41,429 bases of DNA from Bryobacteraceae bacterium (GTDB taxonomy: Bacteria; Acidobacteriota; Terriglobia; Bryobacterales; Bryobacteraceae), in NCBI GenBank assembly GCA_025055455.1, contig JANWXD010000033.1, positions 1 through 41,429 of the forward strand, written 5' to 3'. Shown piece after piece: positions 17,281 to 31,297 of the stretch. Position numbers and translations under genes: made by a program. The notes beneath the pieces are model-generated. The model worked only from the letters and a program-made list of their open reading frames with translations. It searched no databases and was not told the DNA's origin. The stretch's first letter is position 1. Every line of letters begins with the position of its first letter.

Positions 17281-17844
17281 TCAAGCCGGCTCCTTGCGCA
17301 GCGCCTCCACATCGGCGCGGATTTTCCGGAGATCCAGACCCTCGGCGGTCCCGTAGTAAGCCCGAATCCGACCGCGCTGGTCCACGAGGACGAAGTGAGT
17401 GCTGTGGTTCAGACTGCCGTCCACGTCGCCCACTTTGAAGGCATCGCGGCTGAGGCGATGCAGCGTCTCCATCGGTCCCGTCAAGAAGATCCAGCGGCCG
17501 GGTTGGGCTTGGTAGCGCCGGGCGTAGGCGGCGAGCACCTCCGGGGAGTCCCGCTCCGGGTCTACCGTGAAGGACACCAGCCGCAGCTCGGCCACATCCG
17601 CGAGGGATTCCTGAATCAGCCGCATCTGTGAGCTCATCCGTGGGCAGGGCCCGGGGCAATTGGTGAAGATAAAGTCGGCAATCCAGATCTTGCCGCGCAG
17701 CTCGGCGCCGCGGAAGGGCTTGCCAGTCTCCGCCGTGAGCTCGAAATCGGGAATCTCCCCGTAGACGGGCAGGGAGACCTGAGGCTTTCTTGCACAAGCG
17801 ACCGCTGCCACCAACAGTAAGCAGACCAAACAAATCCCTTTCAT
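17281..17844 (-). CDS. SCO1/SenC-family copper chaperone for cytochrome oxidase assembly
   Basis: A 187-residue thioredoxin-fold Sco protein. The N terminus (MKGICLVCLLLVAAVACARK) is a signal peptide; AVAC resembles a weak lipobox, so a membrane-anchored lipoprotein is possible. The copper site is complete: Cys63 and Cys67 in FTNCPGPCPRM, and His150 in SLNHSTHFVLVD. Sco proteins deliver copper to the CuA site of haem-copper oxidases or maintain its thiols. It is the last gene of the large respiratory run, overlapping the ABC permease by 4 nt (ATGA). This position beside haem o synthase makes a role in oxidase assembly likely, though no oxidase subunit gene is in the window. Confidence 0.92.
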   Translation of the reverse strand: MKGICLVCLLLVAAVACARKPQVSLPVYGEIPDFELTAETGKPFRGAELRGKIWIADFIFTNCPGPCPRMSSQMRLIQESLADVAELRLVSFTVDPERDSPEVLAAYARRYQAQPGRWIFLTGPMETLHRLSRDAFKVGDVDGSLNHSTHFVLVDQRGRIRAYYGTAEGLDLRKIRADVEALRKEPA

Positions 17845-18659: not shown

Positions 18660-19567
18660 CGAAATTGGGCGCCAGTTTCGTCCAAGAAGACGTCCTCGAG
18701 GGTGGGCTTGTGCAGTGCGACCGAGCGCACCTGGCCGGGAAAGGCCTCTACCACTTCCGCAATGAAGCGATGGCCGTTGGCGATCTCCACCCGGACCCTC
18801 CCGTCCACTACCCGCAGGTCAACCCCAAAACGCTCGCGAATCCGCGGCCCCAGCCCGTCCGGATCCGCCGCCTCGAGCACCACCACATCTCCGCCGATGC
18901 GCGCCTTCAGTTCGGCCGGGGCGCCTTCGGCCACGATCCGGCCTTCGTGCAGCAGCGCCAGCCGGTCGCAGCGCTCGGCTTCCTCCAAAATGTGTGTCGC
19001 CAGTAGCACCGTCACCCCTTGGCGCTCGCGCAGATCCTCGATATGCTGCCACAACTCGCGGCGCGCCCCCGGATCCAGGCCGCTCGAAGGTTCGTCCATC
19101 AGCAGGACTTCCGGCTGGTGGAGCAGCGCTTTGGCCACCTCCACCCGCCGCCGCAAGCCCCCGGACAAGCGTTCCACCAGCTCCCGGCGCCGCTCCGTCA
19201 AACCGAGCGTGCCCAGCACGGACTCCACCCGCTGTCGCAACGCCCGGCCCGCAAGGCCGTACAGATGTCCCTGGCTGCGAAGGTTTTCCTCCACCGTAAG
19301 CTTCTTGTCTAGACTTTGCGATTGGAACACCACACCGATCCGCTGGCGCACCGCCTCCGGTTGCCGATCCACGTCGAACCCCGCCACCACGGCGCGACCG
19401 GACGACGGAGCCATCATAGTGGAGAGAATCCGAAACAACGTGGACTTGCCGCTGCCGTTCGGACCGAGCAGGCCAAAGATTTCGCCGCGGCGGACCGCGA
19501 AACTCACGCCGGCTAGCGCCTGCCGCGAACCGTAGTAATGGGCCAGCTGTTCGACGGCAACGATCAC
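18656..19567 (-). CDS. ABC transporter ATP-binding protein
   Basis: A 303-residue ATPase beginning at the GTG at 19567, which overlaps the ctaB stop by 4 nt (GTGA). Walker A is GPNGSGKS (residues 35-42), the Q-loop is VVFQSQSLD, the signature is LSGGLRRRVEVAK, Walker B is VLLMDEPSSGLDPG, and the H-loop is LLATHILEEAERCDR. The final 70 residues (GDVVVLEAADPDG to KPTLEDVFLDETGAQF) are the C-terminal domain usual in drug/antibiotic-type ABC-2 ATPases. An open frame continues upstream but is only the wrong frame of ctaB. It works with the permease encoded directly downstream. Confidence 0.9.
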   Translation of the reverse strand: MIVAVEQLAHYYGSRQALAGVSFAVRRGEIFGLLGPNGSGKSTLFRILSTMMAPSSGRAVVAGFDVDRQPEAVRQRIGVVFQSQSLDKKLTVEENLRSQGHLYGLAGRALRQRVESVLGTLGLTERRRELVERLSGGLRRRVEVAKALLHQPEVLLMDEPSSGLDPGARRELWQHIEDLRERQGVTVLLATHILEEAERCDRLALLHEGRIVAEGAPAELKARIGGDVVVLEAADPDGLGPRIRERFGVDLRVVDGRVRVEIANGHRFIAEVVEAFPGQVRSVALHKPTLEDVFLDETGAQFR

Positions 19568-20415
19568 ATCCCCGGCCGGTCCGCCACCATCAGGCCGTAA
19601 AGCAGCGGCAGGTAGACCACCGAGGCCAGCAGGACTGCTCGGGCCCGCGCCGCCGTCCGCTCCACCGCCGCGCGCCAACCGGCGGCGAAATACAGCGAAC
19701 TCAGCACGAGCGCGCCAGCCAAATACGCCTTGCCCGTCATGCCCAGAAAACCCGGCAGCACGCTGGCGGGAATGAGCAGCAGCGAATACCACAGGATCTG
19801 GCGCGCCGTCGAGCGGCAATCCGGTTCCACCACCGGCAGCATGCGGATGCCGGCGCGGGCGTAGTCGCTGCGGTACATCCACGCGATGGCGAGAAAGTGC
19901 GGAAACTGCCACAGGAACAGAATGGCGTACAGCGCCCAAGCCTCGGCCGTCAGCTCGCCGCGCGCCGCGGCGTAGCCGATCAGCGGCGGCATGGCTCCTG
20001 GAATCGCCCCGACCGTCGTCGAGACCGGAGACCGCTTCTTGAGCGGCGTGTATAACAGCAGGTAGCTCAGCAGGGTCGCCAGCCCCAGGGATGCGCTCAG
20101 CGGGTTCACGCCCCACCAAAGCTCCAAGAAGCCGGCGAGCGCGAGCGCCGTCCCGAAGAGAAACGCGCGCCGCGGCGCGACGCGGCCGGACGGAATCGGC
20201 CGGTGCTGGGTGCGGCGCATGAGCGCGTCTTCGCGCCATTCGTACCACTGGTTCAAGGCCGCGGTTCCGGAGGCGAGTAGCCCTGTGCCGAGCATGGTGT
20301 GCAGCAACTCCACCAGGTCCCAGCCCGCTTGCCGGCCGAAGAAATAGCCCACCGCCGTGCTCATCAAGATGAGCCAGGTGATGGAAGGCTTGGTCAGATC
20401 CAAGTAGTCTTTCAT
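19564..20415 (-). CDS. ctaB: Protohaem IX farnesyltransferase (haem o synthase)
   Basis: A 283-residue polytopic UbiA-family prenyltransferase. The first prenyl-diphosphate/Mg site is at residues 55-74, NQWYEWREDALMRRTQHRP, a form specific to haem o synthases, and the second region reads SDYARAGIRMLPVV. CtaB/CyoE transfers farnesyl to haem b to make haem o, the precursor of haem a. It stands between the cupredoxin-like lipoprotein and the ABC ATPase; 78 bp separate it from the former. Its presence implies a haem a- or o-containing terminal oxidase elsewhere. The intervening 20416-20493 has no visible promoter or terminator. Confidence 0.93.
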   Translation of the reverse strand: MKDYLDLTKPSITWLILMSTAVGYFFGRQAGWDLVELLHTMLGTGLLASGTAALNQWYEWREDALMRRTQHRPIPSGRVAPRRAFLFGTALALAGFLELWWGVNPLSASLGLATLLSYLLLYTPLKKRSPVSTTVGAIPGAMPPLIGYAAARGELTAEAWALYAILFLWQFPHFLAIAWMYRSDYARAGIRMLPVVEPDCRSTARQILWYSLLLIPASVLPGFLGMTGKAYLAGALVLSSLYFAAGWRAAVERTAARARAVLLASVVYLPLLYGLMVADRPGM

Positions 20416-20493: not shown

Positions 20494-21276
20494 TTATCCT
20501 TTGTAGGTGAAGTCTGCCGTCTTGGTTTCCTTTGGGCCGACCGCCACCTTCAGCTCCTGCGTGCCGTATCGCTCGTGCCAGGCTTCGATCGTGTACTCAC
20601 CCGGCGGCAGCCCCTTGATGGTGAACGTCCCGTCGGCGCCCGTTACCGAGAAAAACGGATGGGAAACGACGCCGATATAGGCCCGCATCCACGGATGCAC
20701 GTTGCACTTGACCGGGATCATGATCTCCTGCCGGGCGAAGCTCTTGATCTTCGGCTCCCCGCCCGGAGGCTGCGACTCGTTCCATTCCCGGTTGATCTTG
20801 GGCAGCGGGTGAATGTTGTGGTTGGTCGGGTCGCTGTTGAGGATGCGAATCGGCTGATTGGTCATCACACCGATCACCCGCGGCTTGTAGATGCAAGTAT
20901 GTTGGTCCAAGGTCACCGGTTCGGAGGGCGTCGGCCATTGGGTGTCGGGCAGCCCCGCCTTCACCCAAACGAAGACATTGCGCAAGGTGCCGTTGTCGTT
21001 GACCACCACCTCTTCGGAGCGGGGCGGCGTGGGATGCTGCCGTGAGCAGGCCGGCACCGCATCCATGCTGATCGGCCGCATCACCGGCTTGGTGCCCGTA
21101 AAGAGCACCTTTCCCGTAATGGTCGCCGCCGTGGCTGGATCCACGACCGGCGCGGCGGCGGTCGGTGCAGCCGCCGGCGCCGCTTCCTCCGTCCGGGCGG
21201 GTTCCTCTTTCTTGGCGCAGCCAGTGAGCAGGATTGCTGTCCCGGCCGCCAATACGATCGAGAGTTTCGTCCTCAT
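20494..21276 (-). CDS. Cupredoxin-like lipoprotein with carboxypeptidase-regulatory C-terminal domain
   Basis: A 260-residue lipoprotein: lipobox LTGC at residues 17-20, then a charged Ala/Pro/Glu linker (AKKEEPARTEEAAPAAAP). The middle domain (about 50-200) holds probable metal ligands in NHNIHPLPKINREWN and VKCNVHPWMRAYIGVVSHPF, a His/Cys/His/Met arrangement as in blue-copper folds. The C-terminal segment GADGTFTIKGLPPGEYTIEA is a carboxypeptidase-regulatory-like beta sandwich. It lies 7 bp downstream of the octahaem cytochrome gene. I infer a periplasmic copper or electron-transfer role; a purely structural domain is the alternative. Related proteins are usually annotated as hypothetical or 'methylamine utilisation'-like. 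Confidence 0.8.
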   Translation of the reverse strand: MRTKLSIVLAAGTAILLTGCAKKEEPARTEEAAPAAAPTAAAPVVDPATAATITGKVLFTGTKPVMRPISMDAVPACSRQHPTPPRSEEVVVNDNGTLRNVFVWVKAGLPDTQWPTPSEPVTLDQHTCIYKPRVIGVMTNQPIRILNSDPTNHNIHPLPKINREWNESQPPGGEPKIKSFARQEIMIPVKCNVHPWMRAYIGVVSHPFFSVTGADGTFTIKGLPPGEYTIEAWHERYGTQELKVAVGPKETKTADFTYKG

Positions 21277-21283
21277 TCGTTCC

Positions 21284-24200
21284 TCACCTCGTCCTCTGAT
21301 TCATCGCGATCGCGTTCCCACGCACGGCGCTTCCGCCTGCGGCCCGCAGCCGCGAAAGCTCGTCCGGCGTGAACTGGAACATATAGCGGACCAGCAGGTC
21401 CGCGTGATCCTTTTCGTAGCCCTGGAAACTGGGCGGCAGCGGCCCGGCGAAAATCCAGCGGTCTCCCTGGCGCGTGAACAGTCCCGAGGGCATCGCTGTG
21501 CCCGGCATGATCATCGCTGGATCCAGCAGCCACCGCCGGGTCCAACCCGGCTTGAGCCGCTCCTTGGCCAGCAAGAAGTTGGGGGCCGTGGCTCGTCGGT
21601 CATGAGCCGGGTCGCCCGTCGCGTGACAGCTCAGGCACGGCGCCCCTTCGCTGGTGAACAACTGCCGGGCCATGAGCCGCTCGCGCTCGGTCAGGGTTTC
21701 CAGCCGCGGCGGAATGTACGGCTGAGCTTGCGAGGACAGCGCCTCGAAGAACCGCACCAGCTTCTGGATCTCGCCGTCGGAGAAGTAAAAGGTCGGCATG
21801 CGGGCCCGCAGGTACGGCCGCACGCCGTTGCGATTGGTGTCCGTGGCGCTCATGGCCGGGTTGGCCAGGAATTTCATCAGCCACTCGGGATTCACCCGCG
21901 CCCCCTCGCCGATCAAACTGGGCGGTTTTTGTTCCTTCCAGTCCGGCTCTTGATACCGCGGCAGCGTGTCGAAGACCGTTTTCTGGCCTACCATCATCTG
22001 GTGGCAGCCCATGCAGTTGTACTTGCGCACGATCCACCAACCTTCTACGATGTCCCGTTTCGCGCCGGTCGGGTTGTAGAAATAGCGCGGCGGCAGCGTA
22101 GACTCCACCGACCCCAGCAGGAAGGTCGTCAGCGCGTCGATTTCCTGCTTGGTCAGGTGGAAGTTCGGCATCTTGAGCCGCTCCAACTTGTCGGGTTTCT
22201 CCTTGCCCAGATCGAAGATCGCCGGATCTTTCAACTTGCGCTCGAAAAACCCTTTGTGGTTGTACCAGCCCTCCTTCTTGGCTTTTTGCGTGAGCAGGGC
22301 GAAATCCAGCCGGTCGATCGGTTTGGAACCCTCGTGTGTCAGCTCGGTGCCCACGCGCTGCTCTTCTTCCAAACCTTTGATCTCATGGCAGCCGGCGCAA
22401 CCGTAGAACCGCACCAAAAACTCGCCCCGGGCCTTCAACTTGGGATCCTCCAGGTAGGGAGCCGGGGCGTAGGTCAGACCCTCCCGTCGGCGCGTCATTA
22501 GGTAGCTGGCGATATCGCGCGACTCTTCAAGTGTGAGCCGCAAGCTGGGCATGGGCGTCATCTGCTGCACCACCAGCTCGTGCCCGTCGTTGGGGCAACG
22601 GCTGTTTTCGAAGTCGAAGACGAACGGCAGCCCCTTCTTGCGGTAGTCCTCCTCGGTCAGGTCGCGGCGCTCGAGCGGACAGTAAGGCAGCGTGCGCTTG
22701 CGCGGGTCGTGGATCCACCGCACCAGGTAGTCGTAGTTCACCTTCTCGCCGACCCGGCTCAGGTTGGCGGCAAAGGTGCCGCCGATCTGCTCGGCCCCCT
22801 CCCCGATCGAATGGCAGCCCAAGCAGCCTCGCGTTTCAAAGGACTCCTTGCCCCGGACCGGATCCCCCAGCGGCTGCTTCTCGAGCTGGCCGGTCACGCC
22901 GGACTGCCAGATGAACGCCGCAATGGCCCGCACCTCTTCGTCATCCAGACGGAAGGTCGGCATCTTGGTTCCCGGCCGATACTGGTGCGGGTCTTTGATC
23001 CACACCGGCAGCCATTCCGGCCGCAGTTTCATGCGCACTTCCTTCAGGCTCGGCCCGATCTTCTTCACCTCGCGCAGCAAGTTCCGGGAGCGGATGTCGA
23101 GCTGCTCGATGCGCGCATTGATGCTGCTGATGCGCAACTTGAGATTGTCCGCATGCTGGTAAAGACGCTGCGCCTCGGCGTTGTCCTGTGCCCGGTCGCC
23201 CTTTTCGATGGTGAACTGAATCTGGCGCTCGAACTCGGCGCGCTGCTGCTCGAGCTGCCGAATCTCCTGGCGCACGGCCGCCAGCTCTTCGGTGTCCCGG
23301 TCGAAGCCTTCGTAGCGGTGACAGCCGTAGCAGCCCCGGAGCCGGAACAGCTCCCGGCCCTGGTTGAGCGTGTCGGCCATCTCCGTAATGATTTCCCCGG
23401 CGTGGCACTGCTGGCAGCCGGCCTCGAAGTTCTCCCGCTTGTACAAGGGCCACAGCCAGTGCTTGTAGTAGCCGTGCGCCTTGGTCACGCTGGTGAGGGC
23501 GATGCCGTTGCCGTTGTGGCAGGGCGTGCAGCCGAAGCGTTCCGGATCGTGAATGCGCAGCAGTTCCCGGTTGGGATGGCTGGTGAACGCCGCCTCGCCT
23601 CCCATGGCGGCCTTGGTGAGCACCACGGGCTCGCGGATGCCCAGGTGACAGGACTCGCAACGATCCACCAGATCCACGTCCCGCACGTGAATCTGGCGGA
23701 TCTCGATGGGAAAATTCTCGAGTTTTCGACGCAGACCGGCCAGGACCGTCGAACTCACTTCCGGGATCCGGTCCGCCAGGTACTGGTCGCGCTTGCGCCG
23801 CAACTCCTCGGCGGGCGCCATCAGTTCCACGCGCCGCTGGAGCAGCGCCGCCTTGCGGTCTTTCCACTGGCGCAGGTCGCGGTCCATTTGCTCGAACGTG
23901 TAGCGCACCTTGCGCGTAGAGCCGTCCGGCTCGGGCAGCGCCACCGTGACCTCCCGCTGCTTGACCCGGGCGATGCGCTCGCGCAGGCGTTGCTTTTCCG
24001 GCTCGCTCGAGGCCACCTCCAGCTCGTAGGTCAGCGCCCCGATCTCCATGCGCAGCTCCTGGAATTTCTCGTTGAGCACCATGATCTGGGGCGTGAGCTT
24101 GCGGTTGATCTCTTCGTCAATGCGCCGCACGTCCGCCAGGACCCGCTGCTCGGCCTCCCGCATGGCCCGATCGAGCGCCTGATACTCCGGCGACGCTTTG

Positions 24201-24421
24201 ATGCGGCGCTCCATCTCTGCCTGGTTCGGAATCAGGTTGTTCAGAAACGTCGCGTACGTCTCGCGAAACCGTTTCTGGTACGACTTCCACGGCCGCATGG
24301 CGTAGATTTCGTCGTACAGCGCCCAGGCCAGCGACAGCACGAGCAACGCCGAGGAAATCAGCAACGGCCGGCTCAACGAGGAATCGACAATCGGATCCTT
24401 GTCCAGGTCTTCGGGCTTCAT
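21284..24421 (-). CDS. Octahaem c-type cytochrome with coiled-coil region, in bc-complex operon
   Basis: A 1045-residue membrane-anchored cytochrome. The start ATG at 24421 overlaps the cytochrome b gene stop by 4 nt. A transmembrane anchor (about residues 19-38) precedes a strongly helical charged region (about 60-240), probably coiled coil. Eight CXXCH haem sites start at Cys255, 298, 336, 364, 533, 675, 803 and 929. The first three have no following Met-Pro. Each of the last five is followed 48-123 residues later by a Met-Pro typical of class I cytochrome c axial ligands: KMPTF, PMPSL, KMPNF, RMPTF and AMPSG. A second helical stretch (380-450) separates haems 4 and 5. Two extra cysteine-proline pairs (Cys581, Cys609) flank a loop. 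The protein probably receives electrons from the Rieske/cytochrome b complex. It may be a fusion of a multihaem cytochrome with tandem cytochrome c modules. Confidence 0.9.
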   Translation of the reverse strand: MKPEDLDKDPIVDSSLSRPLLISSALLVLSLAWALYDEIYAMRPWKSYQKRFRETYATFLNNLIPNQAEMERRIKASPEYQALDRAMREAEQRVLADVRRIDEEINRKLTPQIMVLNEKFQELRMEIGALTYELEVASSEPEKQRLRERIARVKQREVTVALPEPDGSTRKVRYTFEQMDRDLRQWKDRKAALLQRRVELMAPAEELRRKRDQYLADRIPEVSSTVLAGLRRKLENFPIEIRQIHVRDVDLVDRCESCHLGIREPVVLTKAAMGGEAAFTSHPNRELLRIHDPERFGCTPCHNGNGIALTSVTKAHGYYKHWLWPLYKRENFEAGCQQCHAGEIITEMADTLNQGRELFRLRGCYGCHRYEGFDRDTEELAAVRQEIRQLEQQRAEFERQIQFTIEKGDRAQDNAEAQRLYQHADNLKLRISSINARIEQLDIRSRNLLREVKKIGPSLKEVRMKLRPEWLPVWIKDPHQYRPGTKMPTFRLDDEEVRAIAAFIWQSGVTGQLEKQPLGDPVRGKESFETRGCLGCHSIGEGAEQIGGTFAANLSRVGEKVNYDYLVRWIHDPRKRTLPYCPLERRDLTEEDYRKKGLPFVFDFENSRCPNDGHELVVQQMTPMPSLRLTLEESRDIASYLMTRRREGLTYAPAPYLEDPKLKARGEFLVRFYGCAGCHEIKGLEEEQRVGTELTHEGSKPIDRLDFALLTQKAKKEGWYNHKGFFERKLKDPAIFDLGKEKPDKLERLKMPNFHLTKQEIDALTTFLLGSVESTLPPRYFYNPTGAKRDIVEGWWIVRKYNCMGCHQMMVGQKTVFDTLPRYQEPDWKEQKPPSLIGEGARVNPEWLMKFLANPAMSATDTNRNGVRPYLRARMPTFYFSDGEIQKLVRFFEALSSQAQPYIPPRLETLTERERLMARQLFTSEGAPCLSCHATGDPAHDRRATAPNFLLAKERLKPGWTRRWLLDPAMIMPGTAMPSGLFTRQGDRWIFAGPLPPSFQGYEKDHADLLVRYMFQFTPDELSRLRAAGGSAVRGNAIAMNQRTR

Positions 24422-25371
24422 ATGTTGAACCAAGGAGTGACCCAGATGTACTTGATGCGGAACAGCAGCCGCAGCAGCATTTTCACCGGCAACAGCAGCA
24501 TGGTGATGAGGAAAAACTGCATCACCACGTACTGCAACAGACTCATGCGCGCGTAGATCTTGCGGTTGAACGGCGTCAGCGTGATCAGCTTATGAATCAG
24601 CCAGCCGGCCAGCACCACGTAAATCCCCATCACGGCGGCGCCGAACAGGCCGCGCACCGGCTGGGTCTTGATGCCCGGGATGTAGGAGAACGGCGCGATG
24701 TCCGGCAGGTCGCGGTTGACTTCGAAAATCAGCTTGTTGTGGTCCCACGTCTGTCCCGGCCAGAACCACATCCAGCCCGGGCCGCGGATCATCGTGCCGA
24801 TCACGATCATCGAGACCCACAACACGATGAACCCGAAGATGAACGTGAGAATCGCGAACTTCCTCTGGCGGAATGTGTAATAGCCGTTGCCGAGCGGGTT
24901 TTCATCGATGTAGGGGATCGCCATCAGCCCGAGGATGATCAGCGTCGGCATCACCACGCCCGCCATCCAGGGGTCGAAATAGACCAGCATCTCTTGCAAG
25001 CCCAGAAAGTACCAGGGCGCCTTGGAGGGGTTCATCGTGAGGTTAGGATTGGCCGGCTCCTCTAAAGGGGCATCGAGCGTGATGGACCAAACCATGAGGA
25101 TGACGGTCACCACGATCGCCGCCAGCAATTCGATCCGCAGCAGGTAGGGCCAAACATGCACCTCGCGCGGCCAGCCCGGCTTGTACGGGTAGACCTTCCG
25201 GTGGTGCGTCTTGGCCATCTCCGGATTGGCCTCGAGCTGAGCGATCAGCCGATCGTTGGCCAACGCCTGGCGCAGCCCATACCAGGTGTAAAACGGCACG
25301 AGAAACAGCAACGCCGTGATGGGGATGTTGTCGGGTGTGGTGAGGATGGTCCAGAGTTGATGCCAATCCAT
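24418..25371 (-). CDS. Cytochrome b C-terminal subunit (subunit IV-like)
   Basis: A 317-residue membrane protein matching the C-terminal half of cytochrome b, extended at both ends. After an N-terminal helix (ITALLFLVPFYTWYGLRQAL) and a soluble stretch, the Qo-site motif appears as NPSKAPWYFLGLQEM, with APWY (118-121) in place of the usual PEWY. Several helices follow: AGVVMPTLIILGLMAIPYID, FAILTFIFGFIVLWVSMIVI, GLFGAAVMGIYVVLAGWLI and a final SLLQYVVMQFFLITMLLLP. Together with the upstream b6-like gene it forms a split cytochrome b, as in b6f-type complexes. The length exceeds b6f subunit IV (about 160), with two or three additional C-terminal helices. It oxidises quinol at the periplasmic side. 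Confidence 0.9.
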   Translation of the reverse strand: MDWHQLWTILTTPDNIPITALLFLVPFYTWYGLRQALANDRLIAQLEANPEMAKTHHRKVYPYKPGWPREVHVWPYLLRIELLAAIVVTVILMVWSITLDAPLEEPANPNLTMNPSKAPWYFLGLQEMLVYFDPWMAGVVMPTLIILGLMAIPYIDENPLGNGYYTFRQRKFAILTFIFGFIVLWVSMIVIGTMIRGPGWMWFWPGQTWDHNKLIFEVNRDLPDIAPFSYIPGIKTQPVRGLFGAAVMGIYVVLAGWLIHKLITLTPFNRKIYARMSLLQYVVMQFFLITMLLLPVKMLLRLLFRIKYIWVTPWFNI

Positions 25372-25381
25372 GGCACCCCCC

Positions 25382-26311
25382 TCAAAGCTTCCGCGGCTCC
25401 TTGATTTCCGACTCGAGCATCACCGGCGCCGGTCCGGAGATGCCCCCATCTTTGCGCACACGCCAGAAGTGGACGATCATGAAGGTCGAGGCGATGATCG
25501 GGAGCGCCACGCAGTGCCAGATGTAGGCCCGCAACAACGCGTTGGCGTCCACGATGGAGCCGCCCAGCAGCCCGAACCGCACGTCGTTGAACGGCGTCAT
25601 GCCGAGCTGCGGCCCGAACGGCCCGTCGTGGCCCAGCAGCGGCGTCGCCCGCGCCATATTCGTCCCCACGGTCACCGCCCAGAAGCCGAGCTGGTCGTCC
25701 GGCAACAGGTACCCGGTGAAGCTCAACAGCAGCGTCAACACCAGCAAAATCACACCCACCACCCAGTTGAACTGCCGGGGTGGTTTGTAGGAGCCGGTCA
25801 AGAAGACGCGGAACATGTGCAGCTCCACGGTGATCACCATCAAATGCGCCGCCCAACGGTGCATGTTCCGCAACAGCTTGCCGAATGGCACGTCGTGTTC
25901 CAGATACAGGATGTCGCGGAAGGCCACCACCTTGGTGGGATGGTAGTAAAACATCAGCAGCACGCCCGTGAACACCAGCACGATGTAGAGATAAAAACTG
26001 ATGCCTCCCATGCCCCAGGTGTAGCTGTAGCGCACCGCGTCGCGGTTGATCTTGGCCGGATGCAGGTGCAGGAAGACGTTGGTCAGCACGCCGAGGGCGC
26101 GGCTGCGAGCCGTCTCGTCGTGCTTGACCCGAAACATCGACTTCCACAAGACCGTCTTCTGGGGCTGCTTGAGCGCTTTGATCTCCTCGATGGCGCGCTG
26201 GCGGATGGCTTTGGAATCTTCGAGCAGCGCCGCCAGCGTGGAGCGCCTGCCGTTGCCGGCCGGGGTCTTGGACTCCGGCGCCCCGCCGTTCTTTCCATCG
26301 GTGTCAGCCAT
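25382..26311 (-). CDS. Cytochrome b N-terminal subunit (b6-like)
   Basis: A 309-residue haem-carrying half of cytochrome b. The two haem pairs are His151/His165 ([11 protein letters not shown] and TVELHMF, 13 residues between) and His266/His281 (YIWHCVALP and MIVHFW, 14 residues between). The 14-residue spacing in the second pair is the b6f-type form. An N-terminal soluble extension of about 95 residues (to [10 protein letters not shown]) is longer than in standard b6. GGGAGGCAAACG-type sequence precedes the ATG: GGGAGG ends 6 nt upstream. The gene is 10 bp upstream of the C-terminal half. The complex transfers electrons from menaquinol or ubiquinol to the Rieske protein and cytochrome c. Confidence 0.92.
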
Positions 26312-26322
26312 CGTTTGCCTCC

Positions 26323-26922
26323 CTAGACCCGGATGATGGCGCCCGGGTCGTTGAACTCGGACCGCTCACCCTTCGGCCACTTGTACAGCCGGCTGAGATC
26401 GACCACGATCTGGCCGTCCACATCGAGCTCCACATGCGCCCGGTCCATGGGTCGGGGGGCCGGCCCTTCGAAGTTGATCCCTTCGCTGTCGTAGCCGCTG
26501 CCGTGACACGGACATTTGAATTTGTTCTCGCTCGGCTTCCAGTCCGGCGTGCAACCCAAATGCGTGCAAACGGCATAGATCACGAAGATGCCCTCGGTGT
26601 TGCGCACCACCCAGATGCGGTACTTGTTTTGGAACCGTGTGTCGACGCCGAAGTTGAAATCGGACGGGTAGCCGATCTTGAAGGTCGTCTTGGGCTCGAA
26701 CAGGGCGCGGGGGAAAAAGAACCGCAGAAACATCACGAAGTTCACCCCGAGGAAGCCGAGGATGGAAGCGGTCACGAACCGGCGCCGGCGCGCGATGACC
26801 TCCGGCTGCGGCTCCAGTTGCCGTGGCGTGCGGAACAAAGCCCGCAGCGCCTCCATCAGTCGGGGTTTGCGCCTGACCTGGCGCTCCACCGCTTCGGCGG
26901 GCTCAACGCTAGGAGCCGGCAT
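26323..26922 (-). CDS. Rieske [2Fe-2S] subunit of the quinol:cytochrome c oxidoreductase
   Basis: A 199-residue Rieske protein. A basic N terminus and one transmembrane helix (about 49-70, [20 protein letters not shown]) anchor the soluble head. The cluster ligands are Cys119/His121 in CTHLGC and Cys137/His140 in CPCHGSGY, with Cys124 and Cys139 available for the stabilising disulfide. The position of the stop, 11 bp before the cytochrome b gene, and the AGGAGG site 7 nt before the ATG mark it as first gene of the operon. It takes the second electron of quinol oxidation to the downstream cytochrome. Confidence 0.93.
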
Positions 26923-27209: not shown

Positions 27210-27827
27210 TCAGAAGCTGAGCCCGAATTCCCCGAAGACATTGACCCAGCGGTCTTGCGTGCGAATGCCCGGCACTTCTCCTAGGGGGTCGCCTTCGGTG
27301 TGCCCCCGATAGACTTTGGAAGTCGCCCCGACCCAGAGGTGGCGCCCTGCGTCCAGTGCGAAACGCCCGCCCACCAGAGCGTAGTACCCCCACCCGCTCC
27401 GCGAACGGCACACTGGACACGCCACCCGGATATAGTCGCTCGGCTGGCTCAACCGCTCCGAATAGCGCAAGTATGCCCCGCCCCCGCCGCCGGACACGAG
27501 CACCCGCCCTGAAGCCAGCGGCAGGATGGCGCGGCCACCGAACGGCAGGAAGAACTGGTAGTCGCTGATCCGCAAGTACCCGAGACGCGTGGGCAGAAAG
27601 TCCCGGATGCGCGCGGCTCGAAACACCGTATCCAGCCCGATATCCGCCTGGAAATACCGGTGCCACCGATAGCCGTAGCCGACCGAAACGGCGCCGCTGT
27701 TGTTGAGCGGCCCGGCCAGCTGGCCGCGCGGTAGCCCGGCGCCCGCACCGGCCGTGATGTTGTGCTTGGGGTACCAGGACTGCCCCGCCAGCGGCAGTGC
27801 CACAAGCAAAACCCAGACCGCTCTCAT
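27210..27827 (-). CDS. Secreted, probable outer-membrane beta-barrel protein
   Basis: A 205-residue protein. I chose the ATG at 27827, which gives a clean signal peptide (MRAVWVLLVALPLAGQS); an upstream frame extends without one. The mature part has alternating hydrophobic strands with aromatic girdles, e.g. GAVSVGYGYRWHRYFQADIG, GRVLVSGGGGGAYLRYSERL and WVGATSKVYRGHTEG, and ends in the terminal phenylalanine pattern FGEFGLSF typical of outer-membrane barrels. The length fits an eight-stranded OmpW/OmpA-type barrel. A pair of cysteines (VACPVCRSR) is unusual in such a protein. Function unknown; it lies apart from the respiratory run, 287 bp upstream. Confidence 0.75.
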   Translation of the reverse strand: MRAVWVLLVALPLAGQSWYPKHNITAGAGAGLPRGQLAGPLNNSGAVSVGYGYRWHRYFQADIGLDTVFRAARIRDFLPTRLGYLRISDYQFFLPFGGRAILPLASGRVLVSGGGGGAYLRYSERLSQPSDYIRVACPVCRSRSGWGYYALVGGRFALDAGRHLWVGATSKVYRGHTEGDPLGEVPGIRTQDRWVNVFGEFGLSF

Positions 27828-27944
27828 GCTGCCATTTCTGACGGCCTCCGCGGACCGGTGGTTCCCATCAAGATGCACGGCGTACTCCCCCGCGTTCACC
27901 CCTCATTTTCTCCTAACAAGGCTCCGAAAGGTCATCAGCTGCTG

Positions 27945-27950
27945 TATAAT
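27945..27950 (+). promoter_or_regulatory. Candidate -10 box for the DUF1549/DUF1553 gene
   Basis: A perfect TATAAT preceded by TG, placed so that transcription would begin about 10 nt before the ATG at 27967. No matching -35 is seen. The gap between the divergent outer-membrane gene (27827) and 27967 is 139 bp and probably carries promoters for both. Confidence 0.5.
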
Positions 27951-27966
27951 CCCGTCAATTGCTGTC

Positions 27967-29892
27967 ATGACGGGGAAGGCTGGGTTGCGACGCGCTTTGC
28001 TTTGGACGACGGTCTTGGCAGCTCTGGCGTTCCTTGCGGGGCTTGCCTCGGCCCGGGATGAACTGTCCGACTCCGAGAGGCGGGTGGGACGCGACGACTG
28101 CACGTTCGCGGTCGATCGCGAAGATTACCTCACCCGAGAGTCCCGGCAACGGCGTGAGCTGTTCGAGCGGGTCCGCGCCTTCGCCAAGTCCGAACCTCAG
28201 CGCCTGGCGGCTGCCGCGGTGCCCGCCGACCGGATCCCTCGGCGCAACTTCATTGATGACGAAATTTTCGGCCGCTTGGCGGCGCGCGGGATCCCGTCGG
28301 CGCCCTTGGCCTCCGACGCCGAGTTCCTCCGTCGCGTCTCGCTGGACTTGACTGGGCGCTTGCCCACCCCGGAGCAGATCCGGTCCTTCCTGGCGGATCC
28401 GTCCCCGGATAAACGCGACCGCTTGATCGACCGGCTCCTGGACTCCCCCGAATTCGTGGACAAGTGGACGATGTGGCTCGGCGACTTGCTCGAAAATAAC
28501 GCCCAAGCCTCCAACTTCAGCCGCCAGATCAACGGGCGCAACGCCTTCCATCACTGGATTCGCTCGGCCATCGCCCAGGACAAGTCGTTCCGGGACATCG
28601 CCTACGAAACCATCTCGTGGCGGGGCAACAACTATGACAACGCCACGGGCGCGGTGAACTGGGCGGCGAGCGCGCGCACGCCCATGGGACCCATCCAGGA
28701 CACCTACGACGCCATGCTGGCCCGCACCGCCACGGTCTTCCTCGGCTTGGGCCATTACGATTGCCTGCTGTGCCACGACGGACGCGGACACCTGGAACAG
28801 GTCAGCCTGTGGGGCGCTCGCGCCACGCGGGCCGAAGCTTGGCGGATGGCGGCTTTCTTTTCGCGGATGAGCCTCAATACCCGGCGGGTTTCCCAGGACG
28901 ATTTCTATTACCTGAGCGTGGACGTCGGGGACGCCTCTTCCGGCAACTATGCGCTGAATACGAACTATGGCAACCGTCCGCCGCGCCGGCCCATCGGAAC
29001 GCTCACCAGCATCAACCCCGAATATCGTTTGCATCGCGCCACGCCCGCTGACGGCAACTGGCGCAAGGCCTTCGTGGACAACCTGATCCAGGATCCGATG
29101 TTCGCCCGCAATTGGGTCAACCGGATCTGGAAACAGATGTTCAACTACGGCTTGGCCGAGCCGGTGGACGCCCTGGATCCGGCGCGTTTGGACCCGGACA
29201 AACCCCCGAGCGAACCGTGGACTTTTCAGACTGCTCATCCGGTGTTGCTCGAGCGCTTGGCCGGCGAGTTCCGCAATCTCGACTTCCATCTGCGGCCGTT
29301 CCTCCGGCTGCTGGCTCAATCCTCGGCCTATCAGCTCAGCGCGCGCTACGACGGGGAGTGGAAGCTCGACTATGTGCCGTTGTTCGCGCGGCGCTATCCG
29401 AGGCGCCTGGAAGGCGAAGAAATCCACGACGCCATCGCTCAGGCCACCGGGGTCCTCGGCCGTTACACCGTGCAAGGCTGGACGGAACCGGTGCTGTGGG
29501 CCATGCAATTGCCGGAGCCGGTCGAACCTCGGTCCAACCGGGCGGTGGCCAATTTCATGAACGCCTTCTTCCGCGGCAACCGCGACACGCAGCAGCGCAG
29601 CCAGTCCGGCTCCATCCTGCAACAGTTGAATCTGATGAACGACAACTTCGTCTTGAGCCGCGTGCGTGTCTCCGCCTCGCCGACGCTGCAAGCCGTGGCC
29701 CAGCTTCCCACAAACGGCGCAGCGCTCGACGAGCTGTTCTTGCTGTTTCTCGGCCGGCTGCCGACCGCCACCGAGCGGGCCGCGGGGCTAGCCCACTTGG
29801 ACAAGGCCGCCTCGACGGCCCAACGCCGCGCCGCCATCGAAGACTTGGCCTGGGTGTGCATCAACAAGACCGACTTCTTGTTCAGCTACTGA
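27967..29892 (+). CDS. DUF1549/DUF1553 domain protein with haem-type CXXCH motif
   Basis: A 641-residue secreted protein. A signal peptide (RRALLWTTVLAALAFLAGLA) is followed by the DUF1549 domain: FIDDEIFGRLAARGIPSAPL, RVSLDLTGRLPTPEQIRSFL and DSPEFVDKWTMWLGDLLE. It has one CXXCH motif (YDCLLCHDGRGHLE, about residue 266), where the family usually has CLGCHDHK. The DUF1553 region follows with FVDNLIQDPMFARNWVNRIW, LDFHLRPFLRLLAQSSAYQL and LQQLNLMNDNFV. Paired DUF1549-DUF1553/DUF1501 genes are abundant in Planctomycetes and acidobacteria, with roles in surface or polysaccharide processing suggested but not established. It is 13 bp upstream of the DUF1501 gene. The chosen ATG excludes an upstream open frame that has no signal peptide. 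Confidence 0.88.
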   Translation: MTGKAGLRRALLWTTVLAALAFLAGLASARDELSDSERRVGRDDCTFAVDREDYLTRESRQRRELFERVRAFAKSEPQRLAAAAVPADRIPRRNFIDDEIFGRLAARGIPSAPLASDAEFLRRVSLDLTGRLPTPEQIRSFLADPSPDKRDRLIDRLLDSPEFVDKWTMWLGDLLENNAQASNFSRQINGRNAFHHWIRSAIAQDKSFRDIAYETISWRGNNYDNATGAVNWAASARTPMGPIQDTYDAMLARTATVFLGLGHYDCLLCHDGRGHLEQVSLWGARATRAEAWRMAAFFSRMSLNTRRVSQDDFYYLSVDVGDASSGNYALNTNYGNRPPRRPIGTLTSINPEYRLHRATPADGNWRKAFVDNLIQDPMFARNWVNRIWKQMFNYGLAEPVDALDPARLDPDKPPSEPWTFQTAHPVLLERLAGEFRNLDFHLRPFLRLLAQSSAYQLSARYDGEWKLDYVPLFARRYPRRLEGEEIHDAIAQATGVLGRYTVQGWTEPVLWAMQLPEPVEPRSNRAVANFMNAFFRGNRDTQQRSQSGSILQQLNLMNDNFVLSRVRVSASPTLQAVAQLPTNGAALDELFLLFLGRLPTATERAAGLAHLDKAASTAQRRAAIEDLAWVCINKTDFLFSY

Positions 29893-29905
29893 GGGCAAAG
29901 CCGCC

Positions 29906-31297
29906 ATGAAAGACCGATTCGGATTGGATTGGGGCGGGATTTCCGGAACCAATTTCTGGAGCCGCCCGGAGATCGGGCGCCGGGTCTTTTTCCGCCACCT
30001 CGCCGCCGCCGTCGGCGGTTATTTTTTGCTGCCCGGACGCTCTCCGGAAACCGTCGCGCACGCGGCGGTCACGCCGATCGCTAAAGCGAAAAACTGCATC
30101 TTCATCCTGCTGGCCGGCGGACCGAGTCACATCGACACCTTTGACTTGAAGGAAGGCCCGTGGACGCCGCGGGAGTTCAACCCCACAACGTATGGCGAGA
30201 TTCGCTTCCCTCAAGGATTGATGCCCACGCTGGCCGAGCACATCGAATCGCTAGCCTTGCTGCGCTCGGTCCGCGCCTGGGCGGCCGTCCACGGACTGGC
30301 CCAGACCTGGGTGCAGATCGGCCGCAATCCCACCAGCGCCCTGGGCAAGATCGCGCCTCACATCGGCTCGGTCGTCTCCCTGGAGCTCGGGCCCAAGAGC
30401 GAAAAACAGATAATGCCCGCTTTTGTTTCGCTCAACACCAGCGGCGGCGTCGGTGCGGGATACCTGCCTGCGGAGCACTCGCCGTTCTTCGTCTCCCCGA
30501 CCGGCGGGGGCCTCGGCAATACCACTCACCGGCCCGAAGGGCGCGACGACCCCAGCCGCTTCGACGTGCGCTACCAGCTGCTGCTGCAAATGGACTCGGA
30601 ATGGCGCGCCGGTCCGGATCTGGGCGCGGGGCCGGCCGAGAGCGCCGTCTTCCGCGAGCGGGCCCGCGCGCTCATGTACAACCCGGTTGTCGAAGGCATC
30701 TTCACGTTCAGCGCCGAGGAGCGAGCGCGGTACGGAAATAACTCCTTTGGCAACGCGTGCATCACCGCCCGCAACCTGCTCCGCGCCGGACTCGGCACCC
30801 GCTTCGTCCAGATCACGCTGGGGGGCTGGGACAACCACTCGGCGATCTACACCACCGCGCTCAATGCCGCGAACGAAAATTCGCTCGCCCGGCAGTTCGA
30901 CAAGGCGCTGGGCACACTGATCGCCGACCTCAAAGCGGACGGCACGTTCGATCACACGCTGATCGTGGCCATGGGCGAATTCGGCCGCACGGTCGGACCG
31001 CTCAACGCTCAGAACGGCCGCGACCACTTCTTGCAGCAGACCGTCTTGATGGCCGGGGCGGGCATCCGCGGCGGCCGCGTCATCGGCGCCACCGACGCTC
31101 AAGGCAGCGCTACGACCGAACCGGGCTGGTCGCGCCAGCGGGACATTCGACCCGAGGACATCGAGGCGACCATTTACTCCGCTCTCGGCATTGACTGGAC
31201 CACGGTGCGCTACGACGACCCGTTGGGCCGCGGCTTCGAGTATGTGCCCTTCTCCGACCGCGACCTCTACGGGCCGGTGCACGAGCTCTGGAGCTAG
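29906..31297 (+). CDS. DUF1501 (sulfatase-fold-like) protein
   Basis: A 463-residue DUF1501 protein of the alkaline-phosphatase/sulfatase-like superfamily. The N terminus contains a Tat-like segment (GRRVFFRHLAAAVGGYFLLP). Core motifs are NCIFILLAGGPSHIDTFDLK (metal-site Asp), WAAVHGLAQTWVQ, TLGGWDNHSAIYTTAL and VAMGEFGRTVGPLNAQNGRDHF, in which Asp/His residues could bind metal. Family members usually stand with DUF1549/DUF1553 partners, as here. The stop codon (31295-31297) is immediately followed by the stop codon of the convergent rhamnulokinase, with no bases between and no terminator hairpin. Biochemical function unknown. Confidence 0.88.
   Translation: MKDRFGLDWGGISGTNFWSRPEIGRRVFFRHLAAAVGGYFLLPGRSPETVAHAAVTPIAKAKNCIFILLAGGPSHIDTFDLKEGPWTPREFNPTTYGEIRFPQGLMPTLAEHIESLALLRSVRAWAAVHGLAQTWVQIGRNPTSALGKIAPHIGSVVSLELGPKSEKQIMPAFVSLNTSGGVGAGYLPAEHSPFFVSPTGGGLGNTTHRPEGRDDPSRFDVRYQLLLQMDSEWRAGPDLGAGPAESAVFRERARALMYNPVVEGIFTFSAEERARYGNNSFGNACITARNLLRAGLGTRFVQITLGGWDNHSAIYTTALNAANENSLARQFDKALGTLIADLKADGTFDHTLIVAMGEFGRTVGPLNAQNGRDHFLQQTVLMAGAGIRGGRVIGATDAQGSATTEPGWSRQRDIRPEDIEATIYSALGIDWTTVRYDDPLGRGFEYVPFSDRDLYGPVHELWS

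Follow-up and report, generated by a model that had tools for sequence, protein, structure and literature searches.

The window analysed here, a stretch of 41,429 nucleotides from a Bryobacteraceae bacterium (GenBank assembly GCA_025055455.1, contig JANWXD010000033.1, positions 1 to 41,429), carries on its minus strand an open reading frame (ORF) that begins with an ATG at 24421, ends with a stop at 21284 and encodes a 1045-residue, membrane-anchored cytochrome c with eight CXXCH haem-binding motifs. A first-pass annotation, made from the sequence alone, had described such a protein without giving its strand, and both its length and its motif count are borne out; a reading of 21284-24421 on the plus strand was rejected, as its first frame contains a stop. 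Upstream, on the same strand, lie genes for a Rieske [2Fe-2S] subunit (26323..26922, 199 residues, PF00355), a b6-like N-terminal cytochrome b (25382..26311, 309 residues, PF00033) and a subunit-IV-like C-terminal cytochrome b (24418..25371, 317 residues, PF00032), the last of which overlaps the start of the octahaem gene by 4 bases. The minus-strand order then continues with a lipoprotein, a UbiA-family protein, ABC transporter genes and SCO1. Judging from sequence, it is likely that the octahaem protein is the c subunit of a b6f-like, quinol-oxidising Rieske/cytochrome b complex of the Acidobacteriota, serving the electron route proposed below.

Domains of the octahaem cytochrome

The CXXCH motifs lie at residues 255, 298, 336, 364, 533, 675, 803 and 929, compared with 0.0065 expected from composition and a maximum of 2 in 20,000 shuffles. 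The protein is anchored by one predicted N-terminal helix, its single hydrophobic segment falling near the N-terminus at about residues 11-39 by hydropathy; this transmembrane helix and the long helices of an AlphaFold2 model occupy about residues 14-235 (23717..24382). A triheme domain follows (residues 245-345; 23387..23689), containing CXXCH 255, 298 and 336 and identified by the Pfam family Cytochrome_C7, whose best stretch, residues 252-340, covers the first three haems; an MtrC-like Pfam profile also matches this domain, below its cut-off. Beyond it are five class I modules, each consisting of a CXXCH and a downstream axial Met: module 1 (residues 354-507; 22901..23362) with CXXCH 364 and Met487, module 2 (519-645; 22487..22867) with CXXCH 533 and Met624, module 3 (660-772; 22106..22444) with CXXCH 675 and Met751, module 4 (787-897; 21731..22063) with CXXCH 803 and Met875, and module 5 (912-1018; 21368..21688) with CXXCH 929 and Met977. 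All five were delimited by motifs and alignment, aided by the AlphaFold2 model for module 1 and by Pfam for modules 3 and 4; across the protein Pfam finds Cytochrom_C in four stretches and Cytochrome_CBB3 in two (PF00034 and PF13442). Met-Pro motifs occur at residues 487, 624, 751, 875, 972 and 977, in keeping with the earlier description of the last five haem sites as having a Met-Pro class I ligand and the first three as lacking one. No cytochrome c1 or cytochrome f family appeared among the Pfam matches up to an expectation value (E) of 1, an NCBIfam scan of five operon proteins gave no match of any kind above a curated cut-off, and a PDB sequence search returned weak class I cytochrome and chance matches alone (best E 0.056).

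Homologues were taken as the best 80 of 411 relatives from a scan of named genome contigs (loci L041-L120). The titles of 75 of these loci name an acidobacterial taxon, the other five being L048, L059, L068, L072 and L087; L048 and L059 are titled Acidimicrobiia, hold the acidobacterial operon and are probably mislabelled bins. Counts over 81 rows add the window sequence to the 80 loci, and some columns are given over non-gap rows. Haem motifs 1 and 2 were contained in the two patterns with which the scan was made, and their conservation is thus partly by construction; haems 3-8 lay outside the selection. All eight CXXCH fall within one ORF in 79 of the 80 loci, the exception, L079, having them split 7+1 over two ORFs. 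A separate sample of 41 genomes (the window's own and its relatives) was searched for full-length loci and yielded 19, own included, every one with eight CXXCH; three of the 41 genomes had no match. The two sets were kept apart rather than summed, several of their loci probably being the same DNA, as with L023 and L056, whose contigs have the same length. The likely distal ligands of the triheme domain, His282, His291 and His316, are each present in 81/81 rows (His245 in 57/81), as are Met487, Met624, Met751 and Met875, with Met977 in 78/79. This ligand conservation suggests that haems 1-3 are probably His/His ligated and haems 4-8 probably His/Met ligated. The locus is real and conserved, and apparently functional.

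Helices are predicted by AlphaFold2 at residues 18-75, 78-136, 140-155, 176-218, 371-410 and 414-455. The model, built from 13 sequences, is poor overall (mean predicted local distance difference test score (pLDDT) 51, predicted template modelling score 0.30). By blocks of ten, pLDDT reaches 73-92 for residues 51-220 and 72-84 for 381-440, and is low over the membrane segment (40-65 for 11-50), 371-380 (37) and 441-450 (58). Hydrophobic periodicity of 3.4-3.6 residues exceeds that of shuffled segments (p 0.001-0.025 in seven overlapping segments, uncorrected for multiple tests). The coiled-coil-like regions remarked on earlier are thus upheld as predicted helices with a matching periodicity, and a coiled coil itself is plausible rather than proven, since the evidence consists of those helices, a model of poor overall quality and an uncorrected periodicity. 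The second such stretch is present and can be placed more precisely, as an insert at about residues 371-455, inside class I module 1 between CXXCH 364 and Met487, that contains a predicted helical hairpin; the CXXCH-Met spacing of this module is 122-124 residues in 81/81 aligned sequences. Module 2 has an insert of its own, between Cys581 and Cys609 (22595-22681), the latter within CPNDGH; both cysteines occur in 61/81 rows and may possibly form a metal-binding or disulfide insert.

The Rieske/cytochrome b operon and its relatives

The genes for the Rieske protein and the two parts of cytochrome b are present in 61/61 loci with at least 2600 nucleotides upstream. Wherever they were found (Rieske in 64 loci, the N-terminal part in 69, the C-terminal part in 77), they lie upstream of the octahaem gene, on the same strand and in the same order. 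The upstream gap, computed with start codons guessed by a script, is -4 in 15/77 loci and exceeds 200 nucleotides in 3/77. No other c-type cytochrome family was found by a Pfam scan of 16 window genes, comprising the operon and its neighbours. The octahaem protein very probably stands in for cytochrome c1/f, because it is the sole c-type cytochrome among the operon genes scanned and is linked to the Rieske and cytochrome b genes in every locus with enough flank; the cytochrome c1 role suggested by the first-pass annotation, and the association with the b and Rieske proteins on which it depended, are in this respect well supported at the level of gene linkage.

The cluster-binding motifs of the Rieske protein (Cys119/His121 and Cys137/His140) are kept in 65/65 rows. 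Its best solved match is Kustd1480 of Kuenenia (9rk3, E 4.7e-42, 147 bits), followed by 9rk4 (88 bits), with the best b6f Rieske at 65 bits. Ser142 is present in 65/65 rows and Tyr144 in 61/65, and the equivalent Ser and Tyr have been tied to a high cluster potential (PMC12954380). The b6-like protein has cytochrome b6 as its best solved match (E 1.3e-41), and its haem-b ligands His151, His165, His266 and His281 are kept in every non-gap row (67, 69, 68 and 69, respectively), as well as in the 14 rows inspected from the set behind the cytochrome b tree described below. The position of the haem-ci cysteine, Cys35 of b6, which we take to bind haem ci covalently, is occupied by Gly100, with Gly in 65/65 non-gap rows, such that this feature of b6f is absent. 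The only solved matches of the subunit-IV-like protein with E < 0.001 are b6f subunit IV chains. Its Qo motif is APWY, kept in 74/74 non-gap rows, and stands in place of the usual PEWY or PDWY (gene at 24418-25371). The operon therefore has the features of the bc superfamily, namely a Rieske protein with two Cys/His motifs and a cytochrome b with four His and a Qo motif. It departs from cytochrome bc1 in that its cytochrome b is split into two genes and no c1 family is matched, and it shares with b6f the split into b6 and subunit IV but not cytochrome f.

Related operons in other Acidobacteriota genomes encode c subunits that begin with the same triheme and add 3, 4 or 5 haem sites to it. The 6-haem form measures 462-478 residues in four of six ORFs, the two longer ones probably having overlong starts; the further forms are 7-haem, short 8-haem (ORFs of 631-825 residues) and 8-haem of 941-970 residues. 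The triheme and fourth CXXCH align across all 21 rows compared. Of 15 paralogues, 13 have a Met-Pro in module 1, at a CXXCH-Met spacing of 46-59 residues, and three 6-haem paralogues (L029-L031) lack His316. No form is longer than the window's, which is set apart by its N-terminal helical region and its module 1 spacing, although the form of 941-970 residues seems, by eye in L136, to have that helical region in part. In a cytochrome b tree of 38 rows (part of those available), in which 12 of the 35 inner branches have good support and one branch is very long, the window's form is one clade (100/99), sister to the 941-970-residue form (99/95). This sister group, of three members, keeps a Cys at the haem-ci position, where the window's clade has Gly.

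Two other arrangements were observed. At L034 (1-8450), a related lipoprotein and a short octahaem Rieske/cytochrome b operon are preceded by an MtrC/MtrF-like cytochrome with ten CXXCH, a hint that some form of the complex may serve extracellular acceptors. The window's own genome has a second Rieske/cytochrome b operon (L127, contig C33, 4540-7455), in which cytochrome b is a single chain and the accompanying cytochrome has nine CXXCH and no Met-Pro motif; comparison of L127 with the window's octahaem protein gave no match at E 0.001.

The putative copper lipoprotein and oxidase genes

The gene downstream of the octahaem cytochrome (20494..21276, minus strand) encodes a lipoprotein in which fold comparison predicts a plastocyanin-fold cupredoxin (about residues 119-204) set within a carboxypeptidase-D-regulatory-like domain. 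Its model has a mean pLDDT of 83.8, and VIA-align superposes it on plastocyanin 1jxd with Z 11.0 and a root-mean-square deviation of 1.9 Å over 85 aligned residues, amicyanins and pseudoazurins scoring about 9.5-10. The VIA-align list covers residues 76-235 best, and teneurin and carboxypeptidase score similarly on the other part of the model; the rest of the lipoprotein matches carboxypeptidase-D-regulatory-like domains. The cupredoxin domain emerged from fold comparison alone, sequence profiles barely detecting it (Cupredoxin_1 in 11/31 members, best E 0.024), and a PDB sequence search with the lipoprotein found no cupredoxin, its best matches being in the C-terminal part and mostly to monobodies. 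The putative copper ligands, His153 or His156, Cys191, His194 and Met197, are each present in 72/72 non-gap rows, as is the lipobox Cys20, and the Cys-x2-His-x2-Met loop has what we take to be the spacing of amicyanin.

The lipoprotein gene was found in 69 of the 71 loci with at least 900 nucleotides downstream, and in all 72 loci where it was detected it is downstream of the octahaem gene on the same strand, with a gap of more than 7 kb in two of them. L075 and L086 have the flank and no lipoprotein match; L075 has oxidase genes instead, followed by the contig end. In L074 and L083, oxidase genes lie between the octahaem and lipoprotein genes. Overall, COX1 was found in 24/80 loci, in 22 of them downstream of the octahaem gene and in 20 on the same strand. 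A COX2 gene is present in 25 loci; some of its sequences are truncated, and none has a CXXCH. Relatives of CtaA, detected by similarity to one query, are present in 52/80 loci; the identities of the query-locus COX1, COX3 and CtaA are backed by Pfam, and that of COX2 was likewise confirmed. The octahaem protein is probably a wired route for electrons to oxygen, since it is encoded beside a plastocyanin-like copper protein and sometimes beside an oxidase. The earlier proposal of a wire to downstream acceptors is plausible and gains from the copper lipoprotein and from the oxidase genes where these occur, and is qualified by the majority of loci, in which no oxidase is adjacent.

Further along the window's minus strand are the UbiA-family prenyltransferase (19564..20415, PF01040), a downstream, same-strand counterpart of which occurs in 57/80 loci and which is, from its context, probably CtaB, haem O synthase, and an SCO1/SenC-family protein (17281..17844, PF02630), a family concerned with copper delivery to oxidases. 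Beside the respiratory operon, on the plus strand, lies a DUF1549/DUF1553 and DUF1501 gene pair (27700-31297). Elsewhere in the window's genome, contig C68 encodes an oxidase whose subunit II has no CXXCH, and contig C55 an oxidase to which a cytochrome c domain is fused; the NrfD-family and iron-sulphur/molybdopterin genes next to the latter resemble those of alternative complex III. In cultured acidobacteria, superoperons of bc1 and type A1 caa3 have been described together with transcription data (PMC8407424), and in the acidobacterial metagenome-derived genome CO124 a cytochrome bc complex rises under oxic conditions (PMC10564751). Locus L055 comes from an isolate named MAG_CO124, its tie to the genes of the latter study being by name alone.

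Proposed electron route, known systems and alternative readings

Octahaem c subunits beside Rieske and b/b6-type genes have already been reported in Nitrospina gracilis, Kuenenia and Methylomirabilis oxyfera (PMC3578206), where, as here, the subunit is the sole c-type cytochrome beside the operon. These are nitrogen-cycle bacteria, and the likeness is one of description, with domain order, coiled coils and copper partner outside it. Similarly, Kustd1480-1485 and Kuste4569-4574 of Kuenenia stuttgartiensis combine a b6-like cytochrome b, a subunit-IV-like protein and a large membrane-anchored multihaem c subunit, again compared by description: in AlphaFold3 models the large multihaem subunit Kustd1485 wraps its long helices around half of the complex, and the subunits of Kuste4569-4574 are all reported to comigrate (PMC12954380). 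Of the solved Rieske proteins, that of Kuenenia is by far the closest to the window's. By contrast, a putative NAD(P) oxidoreductase and haem cN belong to the Kuenenia complexes (PMC12954380), whereas the scan of the window genes brought up no NAD(P) oxidoreductase gene, the haem-ci (cN) cysteine is missing from the window, and the neighbouring genes are for a cupredoxin lipoprotein and for haem-A synthesis or an oxidase. The operon, whose only c cytochrome is an octahaem subunit, in line with the octahaem or hexahaem subunit of complexes of the Kuenenia/Nitrospina kind, is thus of a kind already known, given these precedents and a Rieske closest to Kustd1480, and the novelty implied by the first-pass annotation is weakened to that extent.

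Other systems resemble it in part. With b6f and plastocyanin it shares the split of b6 and subunit IV and a likely partner that is a copper protein predicted to have the plastocyanin fold; unlike b6f, the window has neither a cytochrome f match nor the haem-ci cysteine, and the partner is encoded within the operon itself, as a lipoprotein whose Cys-x2-His-x2-Met loop is amicyanin-like. In actinobacterial bcc-aa3, a multihaem c subunit, the dihaem QcrC, feeds the oxidase without soluble cytochrome c; it has two haems as against eight here, and the NCBIfam match to dihaem QcrC is weak (E 1.1e-5, 24.8 bits against a cut-off of 200). The acidobacterial superoperons unite the genes of complex III and of a type A1 haem-copper oxidase; PMC8407424 calls the complex bc1, and neither 'multiheme' nor 'cupredoxin' appears in its text. 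The full-text literature covered, which leaves most subscription papers and supplements outside its scope, contained no description of an acidobacterial octahaem subunit, a haem series or a copper partner. What is apparently new is the series of c subunits in Acidobacteriota, with a triheme start and 3, 4 or 5 further sites, together with the constant copper-protein partner, the helical insert of module 1 and the loss of the haem-ci cysteine.

We infer a physical complex, an order of electron transfer, a role for each haem and the use of the array as a wire as follows. Quinol, which in the window's complex we assume to be menaquinol, would be oxidised at the Qo site, one electron passing through the b haems in a Q cycle and the other going by way of the high-potential Rieske cluster to the haem array. 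Acidobacteria are thought to use menaquinone, and a high-potential Rieske protein working on a low-potential quinone, as in Kuenenia, would imply an unusually large energy drop. From the array, electrons would move to the membrane-tethered cupredoxin lipoprotein and/or directly to the CuA centre of an aa3-like oxidase, of the sort whose subunit II has no cytochrome c domain. Within the array, the triheme (His/His) and the fourth haem site would represent the core common to the shorter paralogues, extended by four more class I (His/Met) modules; since the triheme is what stays constant through the series, we favour placing it near the membrane core, the class I modules forming the extension.

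Several observations weigh against this reading. COX1 is absent downstream in 30 of the 50 loci with at least 5 kb of downstream sequence, and in the window's genome it is found exclusively on two other contigs. The distribution of the subunit is patchy: in the phylum sample of 396 genomes, searched at a threshold of 1e-60, 343 gave no match and 53 did, 26 of them full-length and 27 partial (208-268 bits), the three partial-match loci inspected (L135-L137) belonging to another octahaem subfamily. Within the window's family, 4/25 sampled genomes, own included, have a full-length match and 21 do not, some genomes being incomplete. The octahaem model is unusable beyond some helices and gives no haem distances. 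Foldseek support for the cupredoxin is weak by E, with NirK best at 3.2e-4, plastocyanin at 2.0e-3 and most listed cupredoxins between 1.4e-3 and 1.2e-2. The two 7-haem proteins have no Met-Pro after their fourth CXXCH, nor do the four short 8-haem proteins after their last, so the extra sites of the series count as haem sites and not all as class I modules. Finally, the role of the triheme is the weak point of this reading: haems with His/His ligation ordinarily have low potentials, and these three would accept electrons poorly from a high-potential Rieske cluster.

Alternatively, the subunit could be a two-branch hub sorting electrons between two chains, its five His/Met haems feeding the oxidase while the triheme trades electrons with a lower-potential partner. 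The conserved His in place of Met at the first three haems, the match of the triheme to cytochrome c7 and, below cut-off, to the MtrC-like profile, and its place in the core most shared with shorter paralogues are all consistent with such sorting. We nevertheless regard it as unlikely: beside the operon, no second partner gene was seen other than cupredoxin, CtaA/CtaB and oxidase, in a search limited to relatives of chosen proteins, and His/His haems can have raised potentials. The protein might instead be a free periplasmic conduit that shares the operon without being the c subunit of the bc complex, given that the association is derived from gene order alone and that its size is unusual for a c1 equivalent. 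Against this, no other c-type cytochrome was found among the operon genes scanned, the linkage is without exception in the 61 loci, the genes overlap by 4 bases in the window with a gap of -4 in 15 of 77 loci, and published Kuenenia complexes contain such subunits, with comigration of Kuste4569-4574 (PMC12954380); a free conduit is accordingly improbable.

A further possibility concerns the complex itself, which might bifurcate electrons to reduce NAD(P) in place of a Q cycle, as proposed for the Kuenenia complex that contains the nearest solved Rieske protein (PMC12954380). The haem-ci cysteine is absent and Pfam found no NAD(P) oxidoreductase domain in the 16 window genes, a scan that did not extend to the neighbours of other loci, which makes bifurcation very improbable here. 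That the octahaem gene is a fusion produced by misassembly or frameshift, an artefact for which homologues had been named as the check, might be suspected from the mostly metagenome-derived contigs; the recurrence of the eight motifs in 79/80 named loci and in 19/19 full-length loci of relatives, across independent assemblies, refutes it, and we give it practically no credence.

Returning to the octahaem protein as the c subunit, a broader and more tentative idea, towards which we lean less than away, is that the aerobic chain of Acidobacteriota may dispense with soluble cytochrome c and follow the logic of b6f and plastocyanin. In this scheme a b6f-like complex that has lost haem ci would carry a modular haem arm, from which electrons would reach a CuA oxidase by way of a tethered copper protein of amicyanin-like type, and how far the arm extends would be set by the number of sites after the triheme (3, 4 or 5). 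Drawings of respiratory complex III usually give it an outlet of one or two haems; in part of a phylum abundant in soil the conserved outlet instead has eight, and it is linked to a predicted copper protein and, in some of the loci, to an oxidase.

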